Assembly (NCBI GenBank): GCA_021824175.1
Contig: JAKALP010000046.1
Location: 1 to 35,942, forward strand
Direction of reading: 5' to 3'
Length of the DNA: 35,942 bases
Source: Deltaproteobacteria bacterium
GTDB taxonomy: Bacteria; Desulfobacterota; Desulfobacteria; Desulfobacterales; Desulfosarcinaceae
Below the pieces are notes generated by a model. It was given only the letters and a program-made list of their open reading frames with translations. It was not told the origin of the DNA and ran no database searches. The position numbers were made by a program, and so were the translations under genes. Of the stretch, positions 3,135 to 31,970 are shown piece by piece (positions within the stretch are counted from its first letter, which is position 1; each line of letters starts with the position of its first letter).

Positions 3135-4121
3135 TTACTTGCCAAAAGGCACTTTCAGTAGCCTCCCCCCGCCTTCCCGGACATAAACTGCATCTTCGCC
3201 GATCCCGACCACGGAAAATCCTTCGAGGGTTCCGCCTTCCCGCACCACATTACTGTTCACCACGGCCATGCGGTCAGCCGGTGCTGGCGCCCAGACAATG
3301 GCCTGCACCTTGAGCCGGCCATCGGTCATGCGTTCGGCATTGGCAAAAAGATTGCTGTCTTGAGAGGCGGCCGGGGGCGGCTGTGGTTGTGGCTGCGCTG
3401 GGTTCAAAGCCGGGCGAGGTGAGGTTTTGGAATGATTAAACGAGGGCACAGCAGAGGTCATCGGGCCGGGTTGCAGATCAGCCGGCAATTTCGCAGACGG
3501 GGCCGGATCAGGCTTTGTCAGCGGGATTTGCGGTGCAATAGTCGGTTTCTCTTCATCTGGGGGGGGTTGATCATTTTGGTCAGGAGCCGTTTCCTGCATT
3601 TCCTGGGTCGCGGGTGCCTCCGCTGGTTGCTCCAATTTTGCCAATTGCTCCTCCATATTGGGCATAGTCACAGGGGCAACCTGTGGAATAGCCGCGGGTG
3701 CCATTGGCGCCGATGGCTGCGAAATAGGAATGGGCGCGAGCGGCATTGGGACTGAAGGGTGCGATGCGGCTTGTGCAGGCGCTTCCATTGGAGGCTGTGC
3801 CTTAGCCATTGGATCGGGTTGGCGTGGGATGGCCGCCATATTTGACCGGGGTACTTCCGGGTGTTGAGTCTGGAAAGTTTGCGGTTGAATCTTATGGGGC
3901 GCCTTATTTGGTCGCAAGTATGCATAGAGGACCGAGATACTGGTGAGCACAATCATGGCCGCAACTGCCCACCGGAAGAATTTTGTTTGCAGCCAGGCAA
4001 ATTTTACCCTGCGATGCATGGCCTGGGATGCAGCATGGGGGGAGAGCAAAGAACTGGCGGGGCCACCATAACTCTCTTTTTCTTTTTCGAGCCGCTTGAG
4101 TGATCTTAGAATAGTGCTCAC
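3135..4121 (-). CDS. gspB: GspB-like general secretion pathway accessory protein
   Basis: 328 residues. The N-terminus MSTILRSLKRLEKEKE is the signature of GspB/ExeB-like proteins. One transmembrane helix lies at about 51-68, followed by a long Pro/Ala/Gln-rich periplasmic linker (about 70-260). A compact C-terminal domain from about 265 (DGRLKVQAIVWAP, then GFSVVGIGEDAVYV) matches the T2SS GspB C-terminal fold. In the family GspA and GspB form an inner-membrane complex that helps place the secretin in the cell wall. The GTG start overlaps the stop of gspA by 4 nt (GTGA), so the two are translationally coupled. No other type II secretion or type IV pilus gene is in the window. Confidence 0.85.
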   Translation of the reverse strand: MSTILRSLKRLEKEKESYGGPASSLLSPHAASQAMHRRVKFAWLQTKFFRWAVAAMIVLTSISVLYAYLRPNKAPHKIQPQTFQTQHPEVPRSNMAAIPRQPDPMAKAQPPMEAPAQAASHPSVPMPLAPIPISQPSAPMAPAAIPQVAPVTMPNMEEQLAKLEQPAEAPATQEMQETAPDQNDQPPPDEEKPTIAPQIPLTKPDPAPSAKLPADLQPGPMTSAVPSFNHSKTSPRPALNPAQPQPQPPPAASQDSNLFANAERMTDGRLKVQAIVWAPAPADRMAVVNSNVVREGGTLEGFSVVGIGEDAVYVREGGGRLLKVPFGK

Positions 4122-5932
4122 GCGCCGTTTCCCCCTTTATCAAAACTCAACTGCGGATAATCTGAAATTCCAGCTTCCCGGATGAGAAAAATTTTGGTTA
4201 ATGGTCCAACCAATCCATCTGGGGTTAAGCTGTGTTTCATCTGAAAATCCATGACCGCCTGCTGGGTGGCGTCATTATATTCAGGTGTGAGTTCAATCTG
4301 ATCATAGCCTACTCTGAGGAGCAGGTTCTTTAGCGCCCGCACCGCATGAGGAGGCGAATCAGAAGAAATGATATCATCTACTTTCATCGCATTTTTCCAG
4401 TAAACATAAATCGGGCCGGACAGATGCGGTAGCAAAGTATCTAAATCTACCAGAATTGTTTTACGATTGTTGGTTGAAGCCAGCTCAATCTGGCCACCGG
4501 TCCAGCCCACCATGGCCATGTACAATATTGTGCCGGGTTGCATGGTTTTGAAACTCACGATGGCAGGCAAATTGAGCTGCCTAATTAATACCAAGTCCGA
4601 TCGTACCAAATACATGCGCATTCCATATTGGTGCGCGGCGATATCAAAGTATTCAAAATCCTCAACCTGATTGGGCAGCTGAGCGGCATTAGGTGGAGGT
4701 TGCTGCCAACACTCCAATAGTCTAGCTACGGCATCCAGTCTTGAAGTCTGATGGTCCATGGCATTGACCACCTCCCCAAGAGAGTTCTGAGTAGATTTAT
4801 TCGTAGCAATTTGCGCAGGGACTGCCGCTGTGGCTGTTGCGGCGGCCGTTGCAGTGGCAGGTATCACAGGATCGATGGCAGTCGATTCGGCTGGGATATA
4901 GTCATGAATTTTATAGGTACGAACTGGCTGACCAGACGGCGTTGCAGAATCCGCGGGGTGGGAGGAAGCATCGATGGGGTGTGGGGTCGTCGTTAAATTT
5001 CCCGAAATCCTATCCACGCCCCAACGTTGGATTTGCGAATAAACGGCCCCTGATACAATCAAGGCCCCTAAGCAAGCGGCCGACCATAACACTACGCGTC
5101 TGCCGATAGAGTGGGTCGGCACGAGGCGACGGGTACTCAGCTCCTGGATAGCCACCTTGGCCACTGTTGAGGTGACTTCAGTTCGGTTCAGGCTATAAGC
5201 CGTCAATAATGCACGATCACAGGCAATGTTAATCATGCGCGGGATGCCGCGGGAATACTGGTATATGACCCGACAAGCCCCACGGGTGAAAAGGTTGGCC
5301 TGACGCTGGGCCGCGATGTTAACCCGATGCTGTATATAACCGGCTGTTTCTTCGGGGCCCAATGGCGTCAGGTGGGCGCTCAGGGATATGCGCTGAGCAA
5401 GTTGCCGCAGTTCATATGAATCAAGTTTATCCGCCAATTCGGGTTGTCCCACAAGGATAATCTGCAACAATTTATTGCGCGTAGTCTCCAGGTTGGACAA
5501 CATCCGCACCATTTCGAGGTTTTCGATGCTAAGGTTCTGAGCCTCATCGATGACGAGCAGCACTTTACGGCCGTCCTTGTTCTTCATGATCAGGTAGCCG
5601 TTAATCACATCCAACAACTGCTTAAGGTTGTTATAGTTAGTGCGAATCCCGAACTCATTGCAAATGGTGGTCAGCAGTTGGACCGAATCCAATTTGGGGT
5701 TGAATATATAGGCGGATTCAATGGATTCATCCAAACGCTCTAAAAAGATGCGGCATAAGGTGGTTTTTCCAGTCCCGACTTCACCGGTAATAACGACAAA
5801 ACCATCGCCCTGACTGGCCGCGTAAGTCAGATGCGCCAAGGCGACTTCATGTATTTTGCTCAAAAAAAGAAAGTCGGGATTGGGCACCAGCTTAAAGGGC
5901 TTTTCGCGAAATCCAAAATGAGAGTTGTACAT
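4118..5932 (-). CDS. gspA: GspA/ExeA-like AAA+ ATPase with peptidoglycan-binding domain
   Basis: 604 residues with four readable parts. First comes a cytoplasmic AAA+ ATPase with the MYNSHFGFREKPF start typical of ExeA, Walker A GEVGTGKTT at 50-58 and Walker B VLLVIDEAQ at 124-132. Next is one transmembrane helix at about 280-299. A degenerate C39-peptidase-like periplasmic region lies at about 400-510. Last is a PG_binding_1-type domain at about 535-597. This is the full architecture of GspA, which with GspB couples ATP hydrolysis to remodelling or binding of peptidoglycan for secretin assembly. It is first in a two-gene operon with its own promoter. The SD is weak (GAGG, 9 nt before the ATG). 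Confidence 0.9.
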   Translation of the reverse strand: MYNSHFGFREKPFKLVPNPDFLFLSKIHEVALAHLTYAASQGDGFVVITGEVGTGKTTLCRIFLERLDESIESAYIFNPKLDSVQLLTTICNEFGIRTNYNNLKQLLDVINGYLIMKNKDGRKVLLVIDEAQNLSIENLEMVRMLSNLETTRNKLLQIILVGQPELADKLDSYELRQLAQRISLSAHLTPLGPEETAGYIQHRVNIAAQRQANLFTRGACRVIYQYSRGIPRMINIACDRALLTAYSLNRTEVTSTVAKVAIQELSTRRLVPTHSIGRRVVLWSAACLGALIVSGAVYSQIQRWGVDRISGNLTTTPHPIDASSHPADSATPSGQPVRTYKIHDYIPAESTAIDPVIPATATAAATATAAVPAQIATNKSTQNSLGEVVNAMDHQTSRLDAVARLLECWQQPPPNAAQLPNQVEDFEYFDIAAHQYGMRMYLVRSDLVLIRQLNLPAIVSFKTMQPGTILYMAMVGWTGGQIELASTNNRKTILVDLDTLLPHLSGPIYVYWKNAMKVDDIISSDSPPHAVRALKNLLLRVGYDQIELTPEYNDATQQAVMDFQMKHSLTPDGLVGPLTKIFLIREAGISDYPQLSFDKGGNGA

Positions 5933-20463: not shown

Positions 20464-21657
<1,194 letters not shown>

Positions 21658-21668
21658 CGTGTCCTCCA

Positions 21669-21749
21669 CTAATCGGGCTATCGATTAGACAAAACAATAG
21701 GTTTTAAATGCCAAGCTTTGCGGTGGTTCGCGGAATTTAAAACCTATTG
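21669..21749 (-). promoter_or_regulatory. tuf leader with two perfect hairpins, possible attenuator
   Basis: Perfect 15-bp arms CAATAGGTTTTAAAT / ATTTAAAACCTATTG (21735-21749 and 21695-21709) enclose a 25-nt loop and are followed on the minus strand by TTTTGTCT, a terminator-like tail. A second perfect hairpin, CTAATCG / CGATTAG (21669-21688), ends 1-2 nt before the GGAGG of tuf. The layout suggests attenuation, processing or translational control of tuf; the mechanism is inferred. Confidence 0.7.
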
Positions 21750-21768
21750 CGCGTTCGAAGAGATCCTT

Positions 21769-22239
21769 TTACCAGCGATAATGGGCAAATGCCTTATTCG
21801 CCTCGGCCATTTTATGTGTATCCTCTTTCTTCTTTACAGCAGCTCCTCGGTTGGCTGAAGCATCAAGCATTTCGCCGGCCAATTTCGCAGCAAACCCTAG
21901 CTCAGTGCGGCTACGCGCGTATGTAATCAGCCAGCGAATGGCCAAGGCCGTTCGACGTGATGAGCGTATTTCAGTCGGCACCTGGTAGGTCGAACCGCCC
22001 ACCCGTCGTGACTTGACTTCGATCACCGGACGAATGTTATCCAAGGCTTGCTCGAATACTTTGAGAGGGTCTTGCTTAGATTTCTGCTCAATGAGATCAA
22101 AAGCACCGTATAGGAGCGACTCAGCCACACTCTTTTTACCGTCACGCATGACTGATGCGATGAATTTGGCCACCAACTTGCTATTGTACTTGGCGTCTGG
22201 AATGATGACCCGCTCGGGAACTTCTCTTCTTCTTGGCAT
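21769..22239 (-). CDS. rpsG: 30S ribosomal protein S7
   Basis: 156 residues. [40 protein letters not shown] and [19 protein letters not shown] are diagnostic. S7 nucleates the 30S head and, in E. coli, represses the str operon. It follows rpsL by 41 nt. The gene normally next in the str operon, fusA, is not here. Confidence 0.99.
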
Positions 22240-22280
22240 ATCCTACACCACCGTATTAACTCTGGTTTGCTTCGTTGACG

Positions 22281-22652
22281 CTATTTGGGTTTCTTGGCTC
22301 CGTATTTGGAACGTCCTTGCCGACGATCCTCAACGCCCAGTGTGTCAAGGGTGCCGCGCACAATATGATAGCGCACGCCGGGCAGGTCTTTTACACGTCC
22401 GCCACGGACCAACACCACCGAGTGCTCCTGGAGATTATGGCCAATACCGGGAATATAAGCAGTCACTTCAATCCCCGTGGTTAAACGAACGCGCGCAACC
22501 TTACGCAAAGCTGAGTTCGGCTTTTTGGGCGTTGAGGTATAAACACGCGTACAAACACCTCTTTTTTGTGGTGCCCCTTTCAACGCAGGCGTGTTGGTCT
22601 TTTTCTTGATCCGTTCACGACCGTTGCGCACGAGCTGGTTTATCGTCGGCAT
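22281..22652 (-). CDS. rpsL: 30S ribosomal protein S12
   Basis: 123 residues. [37 protein letters not shown] and [20 protein letters not shown] are diagnostic of S12, the decoding-centre protein. The lysines of TPKKPNS and RVKDLPG, where streptomycin-resistance changes occur, are wild type. It is first gene behind the str-type promoter. Confidence 0.99.
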
Positions 22653-22840: not shown

Positions 22841-25800
22841 TTATTCTGCTGGTAGCTCACTTTGAGCCACATCCAACCCCATATAATCGACTAGTCCGGT
22901 ACCAGCAGGAATCAACCGGCCCATAATAACGTTTTCCTTAAGGCCTCGCAGATAATCGATGGCTCCGGAAATGGAGGCGTCAGTCAGAACCTTGGTAGTC
23001 TCTTGGAACGAGGCCGCCGAGATAAAACTGTCGGTGCTCAAAGAGGCTTTGGTGATACCCAAAATTAGTGACTCGGCTGACGCCGGCTTGCCACCAGCGG
23101 CAATGACAGCCCGATTGGCGTCTTCAAAAGCGATTCGATCAATTTGTTCCTCTACAATGAAGTCAGTATCGCCCACCTCGGTGATCTTGACGCGGCGCAT
23201 CATCTGCCGGACGATGACCTCAATATGTTTATCATTGATGCGCACACCTTGCAGCCGGTAAACCTCCTGGACCTCATCCACCAGATAGCGCGCCAAAGCA
23301 ACCTCGCCTTTGATTCTCAGAATGTCCTGAGGAATGGCCGAGCCGCCCACCAGATGTTCGCCCGCTTTGACGTAATCGCCTTCGTATACGTTAATGTGCT
23401 TACCCCGGGGAATAAGGTACTCTTTTTTATCGCCCACATCCACGGGGGTTACGGTTACCTTTTGTTTACCTTTTTTAGTGGATTTGGCGATGCTGACATA
23501 CCCTTCGATCTCACTCAGAACAGCAATATCTTTGGGCTTGCGCACTTCGAACAGTTCAGCCACGCGGGGCAAACCACCGGTGATGTCTTTGGTTTTGGTG
23601 GTGGCCCGGGGCAGCTTGGCGACCACATCGCCGGCTTTCACCTCATCGCCTTCTTCCACCATCAAAATGGCATCTACCGGCAACATGTAACGGGCCATGC
23701 CGCTGCCGCTTTTGAGTTTGGCGGTTTTACCATCTTCGCCCTTAATGGAGATGCGCGGACGCTCTTCACCCGTTTTGGACTCAGTAACGGTGCGGCTGGA
23801 TTTTCCAGTAACCGGGTCGACCTTTTCCTGCATGGTTTTTCCGGGAACTAGATCGCCGAATTTAACCAAACCATCCACTTCGGTGATAATAGGGGTCGTG
23901 AATGGATCCCAAGTAGCCAATAGTTGGCCAGGCTCAACCTTATCGCCATCCTTGACCAGAATATGGGCACCGTAAATAACCGGACAACGTTCGCGTTCAC
24001 GGCCAGCCTTGCCAATGATGGAAAACTCACCACCGCGCCGGTTCATGACCACATAATGGCCCTGGGCATTCTGAACAATCTGAAGGTCCATATACTTGAC
24101 TTCACCCGCCGTACGCGCCCTGATATCGGCCTGCTCAACGCGGCGGCTGGCCGTACCACCAATGTGAAAGGTACGCATGGTCAACTGCGTGCCCGGCTCG
24201 CCGATGGATTGGGCTGCCAGAATGCCAATAGACTGGCCGATTTCCACCCGGCCGCCATGGGCCAAATCACGGCCATAACAAGCAGCACAGACACCGAACT
24301 TGGTTTGGCAGGTCAATACGCTACGAATGCGCACCCGGGTGATACCGGCATCTTCGATAAGGCGCACTCCTCGCTCGTCGATTTCCTGGTTGGCCTGGAT
24401 GAGCACCTCGTCGGTAAAGGGATCCAAAATATCTTCGACTGTGATGCGTCCCAGCACGCGTTCTCCAAGCCGTTGGATTACCTCACCCCCTTCCATCAAG
24501 GGTTCGACTTCAACGCCCATCATGGTACCGCAATCATGCTCGGTAATAGTTGCATCCTGGGCCACATCCGCCAAGCGCCGGGTCAAGTACCCCGAGTTGG
24601 CGGTCTTAAGGGCCGTATCAGCCAGACCTTTACGGGCGCCGTGAGTCGAAATGAAGTATTGCAACACCGACAACCCTTCCCGGAAATTGGCTTGAATGGG
24701 AGTCTCTATAATTTCACCCGAGGGCTTGGCCATCAACCCACGCATTCCGGCTAGCTGGCGCATTTGATCTTTACTACCACGGGCACCGGAGTCAGCCATC
24801 ATGAAGATGGGATTGAGGCTTTCAGCGATGATGGGATGTCCATCGTCGTCCATCACCGGTTTTCCTTTGACATCAAAAACCGGCATGTTTTTCATGGCTT
24901 CCATCATTTCATTGGCCACATCATCAGTGGCCTTGGCCCAAATATCGACCACTTTATTATACTTCTCACCCTGGGTGATCAGACCTTCGGTATATTGACG
25001 GCCGATCTCAGAGACTTGACTCTCGGCGGCTTTGAGAATTTCCCATTTCTTCTCCGGGATAATCATGTCATCAATACAAATGGAGAGTCCGCCCTTGGTA
25101 GAGTATTTATACCCGATATCCTTGAGACGGTCAGATAAAATGACCGTGGCCTTGGGGCCAAGGTTGCGGTAGACAAAATCAACCAAATCGCGCAACGCGC
25201 CTTTATCCATGATCTTGTTGATTGCGTCGAAGGGCATCTCCGGCCTTTTTTCAATAACCTTAAATATATGGTATCCGTCATCAGCTTTAATGATGGGGCT
25301 GACATCCCCTTCATTAAGACTGAAAACCAGGCCCACTTCCCTGTCGCTGGTGTCAAAAATGCGCTGGAACTCATCCTTTCGCAACAAGCCGATAAAACCC
25401 TCGTTGGTTCGGGCAGCGCTTTGGGAGTAGGTTTTTACCAGCTCGATAAAATCCGCTCCATTTTTAATTTCTTCCAGCAGAGATAGAGCTTTGTCTCTTT
25501 CTTTGACCAGAATATGGCGCATTACCATCATGTGGTCTTTGGGCATAATCTCCCACAGCAGCACTCTTCCCACGGTGGTTTCATAACGTTTTTCGCCGAT
25601 GCGTACCGATACTTTTGCATGTAGATCAGCTTGGCGGGAATCATAGGCAATGCGGACCTCATCGGGATTGGCGAAAATTCTCCCCTCTCCTTTGTGTCCA
25701 TCAATACCACGCGTCATGTAGTAAGTGCCCAAGACGATATCCTGGCTGGGCACTATAATGGGGCTGCCATTGGCCGGTGAAAGAATATTATTAGAAGACA

Positions 25801-27253
25801 ACATCAGTACCCGGGCTTCGATCTGGGACTCCACCGACAAGGGCACATGCACAGCCATCTGGTCACCATCAAAGTCGGCGTTGAATGCGGTACACACCAA
25901 CGGATGGAGTTGAATGGCTTTGCCTTCAATCAGCAGAGGCTCAAAGGCCTGGATACCTAAACGGTGCAGCGTGGGGGCCCGGTTCAGCATAACCGGATAT
26001 TCCCGCACCACTTCATCTAAGGTATCCCACACTTCGGGCACCTCGCGTTCCACCATCTTCTTGGCGCTTTTAACTGTGGATACCAATCCTTTTTGTTCCA
26101 AACGGTAGTAGACAAATGGCTTGAACAGCTCCAGGGCCATCTTTTTGGGAAGACCACATTGATGTAATCGCAGATTGGGCCCAACCGTGATTACAGTACG
26201 ACCCGAGTAATCGACGCGTTTGCCGAGCAAATTCTGACGAAAACGTCCTTGCTTGCCCTTAAGGGTATCGCTGAGGGATTTCAGGGGACGCTTGTTGGTG
26301 CCAGTGATCACGCGGCCATGTCGGCCGTTATCGAACAAAACATCCACAGCTTCCTGGAGCATACGCTTTTCATTGCGGACGATGATGTCGGGGGCCTTGA
26401 GATCCATTAGCCGTTTGAGGCGGTTATTGCGGTTAATGACCCGCCGGTACAAATCATTGAGATCGGAAGTGGCGAAACGGCCGCCCTCAAGAGGTACCAG
26501 CGGTCGCAGATCCGGCGGTAATACTGGGATGACATCCATGATCATCCATACCGGATTGAGTCCGCTCTTACGAAAAGCATCCACGATGCGCAACCGTTTG
26601 GAGAGTTTTTGCCGTTTGGCGGCGGAGTTGGTATTGCGCACCTCATCACGCAGGGAAGTGTACAATTCATCCAAATTGAGACCTTCGAGCAGACGTTTGA
26701 TCGCCTCTGCGCCGATCCCGGCTTCGAATTTGGCACCATATTGTTCCAATGCTTCGCGGTATTTCTCTTCCGTCAACAATTGACAAGGAGTTAACGGTGT
26801 TTCCTTGGGGTCGATGACGATATAGGAATCGAAGTAGAGCACCTTCTCCAAACTCTTCAAGGTAAGGTCAAGCAGATTGCCAATTTTGCTGGGAAGGCTC
26901 TTGAGAAACCAGATATGAGAAACGGGCGTGGCCAATTCAATATGCCCCATACGCTCACGGCGTACCTTGGATTGAATAACTTCCACACCGCACTTTTCAC
27001 AAATAACGCCCCGATGCTTCATGCGCTTATATTTACCGCAATTGCATTCATAGTCTTTGGTGGGGCCAAAAATTTTGGCGCAGAACAGGCCATCCCGCTC
27101 AGGTTTGAAGGTTCGATAGTTGATGGTTTCCGGCTTCTTGATTTCACCATGAGACCACTGGCGGATTTGCTCGGGCGAGGCCAGGGCCACCCGAACACCT
27201 CGGTACTGTCGCGGATCGGTCGGTTTGGCAAAAAAGTCGTACAAAGTTTCCAT
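22841..27253 (-). CDS. rpoC: RNA polymerase beta' subunit with inserted parvulin-like domain
   Basis: 1470 residues, longer than the roughly 1400 of relatives with the same layout. The order is standard: zinc ribbon ([19 protein letters not shown]), catalytic NADFDGD at 458-464, the rim helices beginning near [13 protein letters not shown], bridge helix (about [20 protein letters not shown]), second zinc site ([13 protein letters not shown]), trigger loop with a proteobacterial-type SI3 insertion, and the C-terminal end. The extra element is residues 573-672, a PpiC-like domain described separately. The frame is continuous across both junctions and the flanking beta' sequence aligns normally. 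ATG start; 78 nt after rpoB. Confidence 0.99.
25238..25537 (-). other. Parvulin/PpiC-type isomerase domain inserted in RpoC (residues 573-672)
   Basis: Beta' homologues read LLWEIMPK then directly into a helix like the [12 protein letters not shown] found here at 673. Between them lie 100 extra residues with the parvulin order: MRHILVK (His580), a helix with [17 protein letters not shown], a loop, the EFQRIF helix, [10 protein letters not shown], and [12 protein letters not shown] (His662). Against Pin1 the two core histidines are kept, the Cys/Asp position is Ser612, the hydrophobic pocket reads Phe629 and Phe633. The GGDLG-type glycines are partly lost (EGFIG). The insert is just before the secondary-channel rim helices. 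Catalysis is possible but not shown; it might serve only as a binding module. Confidence 0.88.
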
Positions 27254-30300: not shown

Positions 30301-31441
30301 CCGGACGCATCAGACGGTAAATCTCGATCAATGCTTCTTCTTTGCTGGTCACCTTATCCAAGTGCAATGTCTTGCGGACTGAGTCACTGCTGGAGACACC
30401 ATCGACATGCAAGATATCGAACTCATTAATGCCGAAGCTCTTGAGTTTGGTCAGCGTCGTTTCATTGACTTCATCATTGGAGCTGACGATCAACTCACCA
30501 CTTTTGGGGTCGGTAATAGCAACCGCAAATACTTTGCTTAGTAGTTCTTCGGGGCCTATTGGAATGCTCTCCATATTGGCGGCCTTCATTTGCTTGATGG
30601 CCCGCTGCGTAAACATGCGCCCTTTTTTTACAAGTACTTCACCGTTGGTGGGATCCACCACATCCCGACTGGCCCGCTGGCCCTTGAGCTGCTCCTCGTT
30701 GAACAGCTTAAACGCACGCCTTCCTTCCACTACTACCCGTTCCTTGCCGTAGAAGTAATTGAGCAAGTCCTCGGTGGTGTACCCGAATGCTTTAAGTAAA
30801 GTAGTAACTGGGAATTTACGTCGACGGTCAATGCGAATATAGACAATATCTTTCGGATCGATCTCCAAATCGATCCATGAACCGCGTACAGGAATAATTC
30901 GCGCGCTATAAATAATTTTTCCGCTTGAATGGGTCTTGCCTTTATCATGATCAAAAAAGACACCCGAGGAGCGATGCAACTGGCTGACCACCACACGCTC
31001 TGTGCCATTGATAATAAAAGTCCCTTTTTCGGTCATTAACGGAATCGTACCGAAATAGATCTCCTGCTCTTTGATGTCACGAATATTGGAGACACCCGTT
31101 TCTTTGTCCACTTCATAGACTACCAGTCGGACCGTAATCCGGACCGGGAGCTCATAAGTCATGCCACGCTGGATACACTCTTCTTCGCTGTGCTTAACCT
31201 CTGAAAATCGGTAAGAAACAAATTCCAGGGAAGCGCTGCCGGTGAAATCCTTAATCGGGAAAACCGATTTAAATACCGCCTGCAATCCAATGTCCTCGCG
31301 CCGTTCGGGAGGAATATCGAGTTGCAGAAAGCGTCGATAAGATTCTTTTTGCATGCCGATAAGATCCGGGATCTCTACGATTTTTTTGATCTTACCGAAG
31401 TTCTTCCGAATTCGCTTGTCAAGCGCCAACCGTGCAGCCAT
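27332..31441 (-). CDS. rpoB: RNA polymerase beta subunit
   Basis: 1369 residues from [20 protein letters not shown], chosen because GGAGA lies just upstream and the N-terminus then matches the family. The longer open frame to 31519 runs through a hairpin and is rejected. The rifampicin region [20 protein letters not shown], then [12 protein letters not shown], keeps the susceptible-type Asp, His and Ser, so susceptibility is inferred. The length and inserts resemble proteobacterial beta. No unusual domain was seen. Confidence 0.99.
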
Positions 31442-31479
31442 GGTCTCTCCAATGTTTTTTTTCGATGACTTTAGGAAAC

Positions 31480-31525
31480 GCGAAAATGGGATAAAAGGTT
31501 CGTCGCCTTTCCACCCCATTTTCGC
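31480..31525 (-). promoter_or_regulatory. Long hairpin between rplL and rpoB
   Basis: Perfect 11-bp arms GCGAAAATGGG / CCCATTTTCGC enclose a second stem AAAGG / CCTTT with a 7-nt loop. The spot matches the rplL-rpoB gap of E. coli, which carries an attenuator and an RNase III cut site. A long interrupted duplex suits RNase III processing better than termination, as no T-tract follows directly. Function inferred from position and pairing. Confidence 0.75.
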
Positions 31526-31580
31526 ATTGTACTAATCGTATGTTCAGCAGGGAGACGATTGATGCCTCCGCCAGGCGCAA

Positions 31581-31970
31581 TTATTTAAGTTCCACTTGAG
31601 CGCCGGCGCCTTCCAATTGGGCCTTGATTTTCTCGGCCTCGTCCTTGGGAATGCCTTCCTTTACTGGTTTAGGAGCTCCATCCACCAAGTCTTTGGCTTC
31701 TTTCAGCCCCAGACCTGTGATGGCGCGAACCTCTTTGATCACCTGAATCTTCTTATCTCCCGCAGTGGTCAGAATTACGTCAAACTCGGTCTTTTCGGCA
31801 GCGGCCGCGCCAGCATCGCCAGCGGGGCCAGCGGCGGCGGCCATCATGGCCACTGGGGCCGCAGCCGAAACGCCAAACTTGGTTTCCAATTCTTTAACCA
31901 TCTCGGAAAGTTCCAAAACGGTCATGTTCGCAATAAAATCGATAACAGCTTGTTTTGTGACATCAGCCAT
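31581..31970 (-). CDS. rplL: 50S ribosomal protein L7/L12
   Basis: 129 residues. The N-terminal dimerisation helices ([20 protein letters not shown]), an Ala/Gly-rich hinge (about 38-60) and the C-terminal factor-binding domain ([33 protein letters not shown]) are complete. It forms the flexible stalk with L10. It follows rplJ by 87 nt. Confidence 0.99.

Follow-up and report, generated by a model that had tools for sequence, protein, structure and literature searches.

The window analyzed here, a stretch of 35,942 nucleotides of contig JAKALP010000046.1 from a deltaproteobacterium of the family Desulfosarcinaceae, carries on its minus strand the rpoB-rpoC genes and a ribosomal-protein cluster. 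The rpoC gene (positions 22841 to 27253, minus strand) is a single open frame encoding an RNA polymerase β' subunit of 1470 amino acids, which matches the TIGR02386 model with 1760 bits and contains the Pfam Rpb1 domains 1 to 5. It is directly followed by rpsL, rpsG, and tuf (20464 to 22652); within this segment, there is no frame for elongation factor G between rpsG and tuf, where the gene for this factor is often found. Elsewhere in the window, a 604-amino-acid frame (4118 to 5932) matches with its residues 1 to 266 the XrtA/PEP-CTERM system ATPase, slightly below the cut-off (300.7 of 324.5 bits).

The β' subunit contains an additional in-frame domain of approximately 100 residues with the features of a PpiC-type parvulin (residues 573 to 672; 25238 to 25537, minus strand, residue 573 starting at 25537 and residue 672 ending at 25238). 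These are the coordinates given by a sequence-only reading of this DNA, and the domain is indeed enclosed in one open frame on the minus strand. The β' stretch ahead of it (residues 453 to 572; 25538 to 25897, minus strand) bears the catalytic NADFDGDQM motif, and the stretch past it (residues 673 to 860; 24674 to 25237, minus strand) comprises the rim helices and the next loop. The 16 aligned RpoC loci of other orders lack the domain; their junction is uninterrupted (e.g., ...EILP/EEIPF...), so that the added piece corresponds to approximately residues 572 to 671. In the chain alignments, E. coli β' resumes at residue 587 past the insert, and the match ahead of the insert ends at 584 to 585 in two other chains for which alignments were shown, in agreement with the entry point near E. 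coli residue 585 proposed earlier. The cyanobacterial RpoC1 profile matches up to residue 555 (position 557 of the 619 in the profile), and the match to the RpoC2 profile starts at residue 678 (profile position 3). The insert is thus located approximately at the site of the cyanobacterial gene split, a junction where a break in the chain is tolerated. The rim helices, defined as E. coli β' V673 to E685 in PMC7527559, correspond to residues 759 to 771 of the RpoC in the window and lie about 90 residues beyond the insert. The domain is perhaps also close to the secondary-channel rim in space; a model that included the β' flanks (431 residues) was poor (mean pLDDT of 67.8) and does not position the domain relative to the rim helices. 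Further along the chain, at residues 1096 to 1216, weak and strong matches to barrel-sandwich-type Pfam models fit the SI3 insertion that had also been claimed for this protein, Biotin_lipoyl_2 being the sole model of this type above its cut-off.

The assignment to the parvulins is based on three types of data. (i) With the whole RpoC as query, the Pfam models Rotamase_3 (2.3e-10), Rotamase (6.2e-10), and Rotamase_2 (1.9e-9) all matched above their gathering scores. The NCBIfam PpiC and PrsA models also match residues 573 to 672, with scores under the whole-protein cut-offs of those models. (ii) Among solved chains, E. coli PpiC matched best by sequence (6.8e-9), and PpiC and PrsA were the top matches. 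(iii) An AlphaFold model of the domain, generated from 78 aligned inserts, had a mean pLDDT of 87.9 and the parvulin fold. The best 50 of its 313 Foldseek matches were all parvulins or parvulin-bearing proteins, among them YacD, which we take to be a protein with a parvulin domain; the match to the PrsA PPIase 1zk6 had a TM score of 0.88 (by target) and an rmsd of 1.6. Two outcomes that the sequence-only reading had named as refuting it, the lack of a significant match to a parvulin profile and a predicted fold other than parvulin, thus did not occur, and the data confirm by profile, sequence, and predicted fold that a parvulin domain is built into RpoC. Of the features of this class, the profile match, the fold, and the histidine pair are present, whereas in the window the catalytic Cys/Asp position is occupied by Ser612; the missing Cys/Asp bears on standard catalysis, not on the fold. 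Within the phylum, the domain also has the properties of a lineage-specific β' insertion, being an in-frame extra domain that sister lineages lack and that leaves the core intact on both sides. An insertion of the HABAS (SI3) type was rejected, since the segment contains no barrel-sandwich hybrid and has a parvulin profile and fold instead. We rejected an assembly chimera or a mistaken match as extremely unlikely, since the insert lies in one frame, occupies an identical location in assemblies made independently for 128 genera, and matches three Pfam models above their cut-offs.

The alignment with PpiC relates H580 (25514 to 25516), S612 (25418 to 25420), F629, F633, and H662 (25268 to 25270, all on the minus strand) to PpiC H8, C40, M57, F61, and H84, respectively. 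It thereby supports the earlier placement of Ser612 at the Cys/Asp position. We compared these positions among the inserts of 120 of 121 loci (L038 was left out, since it had no frame passing the criterion), which collapsed to 89 distinct inserts; the segment from residue 563 to 685 is 123 amino acids long in 81 of these. The statement that both core histidines survive is correct for the window but not for all of its kin: position 580 is His in 75 and position 662 in 83 of the 89 distinct inserts, both are present in 74 of 91 inserts, and a quick tree of 98 rows required a minimum of 6 changes at each position. A Cys or Asp at the position of Ser612 has a catalytic role in parvulins. Among the 89 inserts, this position is occupied by Ser (43), Gly (24), Ala (15), His (3), Cys (1), Asp (1), Asn (1), and Leu (1), so that Cys or Asp occurs in only 2. 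For comparison, 34 free parvulin domains were retrieved with the insert profile (E ≤ 0.01, at least 70 aligned columns), mostly from insert-carrying genomes and including two loci of other orders; they have Cys (14), Asp (7), Gly (7), Ser (4), Asn (1), and Ala (1), i.e., Cys or Asp in 21 of 34.

The inserts have, in addition, a signature of their own. It is located at residues 625 to 633 (25355 to 25381, minus strand) and reads D627-E628-F629-x-R631-I-F633, with E628 conserved in 86, F629 in 84, R631 in 79, F633 in 74, and D627 in 59 of the 89 inserts; F664 is conserved in 87. The nearly invariant positions 628, 629, 631, and 664 set the inserts apart from the free domains: position 629 is Phe in 84 of 89 inserts versus Met in 22 of 34 free domains, and position 664 is Phe in 87 of 89 inserts versus Ile in 27 of 34 free domains. 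The hydrophobic character of the pocket positions 624, 629, and 633 has been kept in the inserts. Together with the purifying selection described below, this remodelling is what would be expected of a fold retained for a new, constrained purpose.

The distribution of the insert was analyzed in the phylum, as the sequence-only reading had proposed, using a flank-insert-flank query against 297 genomes, 12 of them from the order of the window, Desulfobacterales (its own genome included), and 285 from other orders. All 12 genomes of the same order matched at 1.4e-43 or better, that of G254 in two pieces. None of the 285 genomes of other orders had the insert among the matches listed, in which the best (2.0e-16) covered a flank alone and a much changed insert could escape. 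We then extended the search to 389 genomes of the order, including that of the window, with a threshold of E ≤ 1e-20. Matches, some of them weak and partial, were found in 333 genomes and in 128 of 150 genera. With a longer query, the remaining 56 genomes comprised 10 with an rpoC region without the insert, 1 in which the region was cut at a contig end, and 45 in which no rpoC region was found, so that 333 of the 343 genomes that could be judged match. The 10 genomes without the insert belong to four families (f100, f112, f115, and f151), in whose examined genomes it is absent. A scan of named genomes, based on one flank pattern and taking in 80 of 170 relatives with names of the Desulfobacterales type, Deltaproteobacteria, or broader, found the insert under the names Desulfobacterales, Desulfobacteraceae, Desulfosarcinaceae, Desulfatitalea, Desulfococcus, Desulfonema, and Desulfosudis, plus broader labels. 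Taken together, these data and the tree described below indicate that the insert is an inherited trait of one order. Two individual loci stood out in the comparison: relative L134 is filed under Myxococcota by NCBI, and the locus of genome G254 (L017:1615-2061, minus strand) has about 27 extra residues inside the parvulin domain, ahead of the part that ends in YS.

The history of the insert was reconstructed on a quick RpoC tree of 63 of 149 rows from which the insert columns were excluded. On the best tree, the trait needs three changes. All 40 insert rows fall into one clade of 44 rows (SH-aLRT of 100). Families f100 and f151 split off ahead of this clade; f112 and f115 sit within it, in a fork with a support of 85. 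The junction of f100 and f151 has the plain ancestral form, and that of f112 and f115 is longer by 4 to 5 residues, which might be deletion remnants. A single gain of the insert in an ancestor of most Desulfobacterales is most likely, and the best tree is most simply read as one gain followed by one or two losses. We rejected two losses as a firm conclusion: although the best tree needs three changes, its starred branches force only one, and the AU test did not reject a single clade of insert rows (p = 0.247). In addition, a tree in which f112 and f115 were constrained as one clade outscored the free tree. There may thus have been two losses, one, or none; later losses are probable, although the trees do not prove them. 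A tree of the domain itself, made with 26 of the 89 inserts and excluding that of the window, grouped 25 of the 26 together on a long branch (support values of 94/100), with the long row L016 astray, and resolved no donor; this makes a single origin likely, although not proven. We rejected a recent origin by copying from another parvulin gene of this genome, since the four parvulins found there with the insert as query are 32 to 35% identical to it and the domain tree sets 25 of the 26 inserts apart.

Purifying selection on the insert was shown by the ratios of nonsynonymous to synonymous changes (NG86) in the 16 closest pairs from 98 rows, which are not independent of each other. The dN/dS of the insert was between 0.04 and 0.32 in 15 of the pairs and 0.91 in one with a dS of 0.05. 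In 15 of the 16 pairs, the dN of the insert exceeded that of the RpoC stretch from residue 440 to 560. We considered whether the insert is a tolerated passenger, i.e., an accidental insertion into a loop that accepts breaks, with no function of its own or one restricted to the folding of β'. Its faster evolution compared to nearby RpoC would be compatible with this, as would the start of the cyanobacterial RpoC2 profile at the junction and the position of f112 and f115 within the insert clade of the best tree, as if they had lost the domain. This explanation is nonetheless quite improbable in light of the low dN/dS in 15 of 16 pairs, the signature at positions 628, 629, 631, and 664 (79 to 87 of 89 inserts), and the match in 333 of 343 judged genomes of the order.

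The stretch past the insert was inspected for a possible partner of the domain. We scanned RpoC residues 345 to 964 outside the insert in 30-residue windows for prolines, using 114 distinct rows. The largest gain of prolines in carriers over both other groups was at residues 790 to 819, in the loop after rim helix 2, with means per 30 residues of 3.0 in 91 carriers, 1.57 in 7 non-carriers of the order, and 1.44 in 16 RpoC proteins of other orders. The end of rim helix 2 together with this loop (residues 780 to 817, approximately E. coli 694 to 723; 24803 to 24916, minus strand) is a candidate partner in cis, to be taken as a lead only. The stretch after rim helix 2 has 37 to 41 residues in f112 and f115 as opposed to 48 in most carriers; however, the long loop is also present in two families without the insert and a short one in some carriers. 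On the tree, the association of insert and proline loop comes down to only 1 to 3 independent pairs, and the link between both, as read from the sequences, can be called suggestive. We saw no relation between loss of the histidine and the proline loop, as the mean was 3.14 prolines in the 14 rows without His580 and 2.97 in the 77 rows with it. A very doubtful possibility is that of a built-in proline switch, in which the parvulin domain would hold on to the loop rich in prolines that ends rim helix 2 of its own subunit. How long the secondary channel stays open to Gre- and DksA-type factors would then be set by a slow cis-trans isomerization of this loop or by its being captured and released.

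These factors are also central to another explanation, in which the domain acts as a gate of the secondary channel by mimicking the globular domain of Gre and competing at the rim helices. According to PMC7461557 and PMC7527559, the C-terminal domains of GreA and GreB are FKBP-like in fold and lie near the secondary channel, and the β' rim helices are bound by the globular domains of Gre and DksA (PMC7527559). The distance in sequence of about 90 residues between the insert and the rim helices and the higher number of prolines past rim helix 2 in carriers (3.0 versus 1.57 and 1.44 per 30 residues) argue for such a gate. We judge it improbable because (i) the Gre and DksA families have been kept, (ii) the flanked model is too poor to place the domain in space, (iii) the proline link amounts to 1 to 3 independent pairs and the loop length is mismatched in some families, and (iv) no Gre factor was among the best 50 of the 313 fold matches. 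Unlike the insert, GreA and GreB are separate factors. The GreA family was found in 17 of 19 genomes, namely, in 11 of the 12 that carry the insert and in 6 of the 7 that lack it, and the DksA-type family in all 19. The genomes thus give no sign of the domain replacing a channel factor, and a role of the insert as a replacement of Gre or DksA factors was rejected.

The explanation that we favor, with modest confidence, is that the insert is a peptide-binding module which, tethered to the polymerase, tunes it, perhaps in the vicinity of the secondary channel, and whose catalysis is weak or dispensable. The parvulin domain would have entered RpoC, most likely once, at a break-tolerant β' junction ahead of the rim helices, and would have been retained by selection since then. 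Its remodelled pocket would hold a segment of β' itself or of a bound factor on the surface of the polymerase, and would in this way tune how the secondary channel is accessed or used; prolyl isomerase activity would be weak or unnecessary. We infer both the binding role and the weak catalysis. A binding module fits better than a normal enzyme, since 87 of the 89 inserts have neither Cys nor Asp at the catalytic position and related inserts differ in their histidines. On the other hand, the retention of the histidine pair in 74 of 91 inserts exceeds the requirements of a fold with a purely passive role and speaks against this explanation. The existence of four families without the insert indicates that the order can live without it.

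The main competitor of a binding module is a working isomerase, which would still catalyze prolyl cis-trans isomerization in nascent proteins or in proteins bound to the polymerase, and would do so with Ser, Gly, or Ala instead of Cys/Asp. The frequent presence of both histidines and the hydrophobic pocket positions 624, 629, and 633 are consistent with this alternative. In addition, 7 of the 34 free parvulin domains have Gly in place of Cys/Asp, so that a change there is no proof of inactivity. Since Cys or Asp is present in only 2 of 89 inserts, compared to 21 of 34 free domains, and each histidine has repeatedly changed without loss of the domain, we regard a working isomerase as unlikely, although it deserves serious consideration.

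Comparison with known systems showed which part of the finding is new. PpiC (parvulin 10) and the PrsA PPIase share with the insert the fold, the pocket positions, and the histidine pair. The insert differs from both in (i) its location in RpoC, (ii) the replacement of Cys/Asp by Ser, Gly, or Ala in 82 of 89 cases, (iii) the change of the pocket Met to Phe, and (iv) its own DEFxRIF and HIF signature. Pin1 and Ess1, in contrast to the insert, are separate proteins that act on C-terminal repeats, which the bacterial polymerase lacks. They resemble it in that a parvulin is tied to an RNA polymerase, in their case RNA polymerase II (PMC7994582). SI3/β'i6 and the other HABAS and BEAN inserts are, like the parvulin domain, in-frame extra domains of β' that mark a bacterial lineage, as described in passages of PMC11515920. 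In these passages, the bacterial polymerase inserts are built of few fold types, namely, HABAS, BEAN, or sLC, whereas the present insert has a parvulin fold; the words parvulin, isomerase, rotamase, PpiC, or Desulfo do not occur in the text of this survey, nor is parvulin mentioned in that of PMC13114784. PMC11515920 further suggests that bacteria no longer acquired insertions at later stages of their evolution; the parvulin insert, in contrast, arose inside an order. In line with the sequence-only reading, which knew of no described parvulin insert, the literature searched contained no earlier description of one in RNA polymerase; the insert surveys of 2004 and 2010 could mention one. The kind of element, a lineage-specific polymerase insertion, is therefore already known, and the parvulin fold is the new part. 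That a folding-enzyme domain became fixed in β' of a major sulfate-reducing order suggests that this core enzyme gained new domains late. The insert also provides a clade marker and raises the question of what role a prolyl-isomerase fold has for a transcribing polymerase.

Free parvulin genes of the genomes searched provided two further observations. Loci L185 and L186 (genomes G210 and G186 of the order, respectively) contain a free small parvulin frame of 97 to 100 amino acids that starts with ARHILV and has Cys at the catalytic position and that may represent a donor type. Contig C12 of the genome from which the window derives (G000) contains two parvulin genes with equal scores (31437 to 31772 and 36907 to 37242) that are approximately 5.5 kb apart and perhaps arose by duplication.
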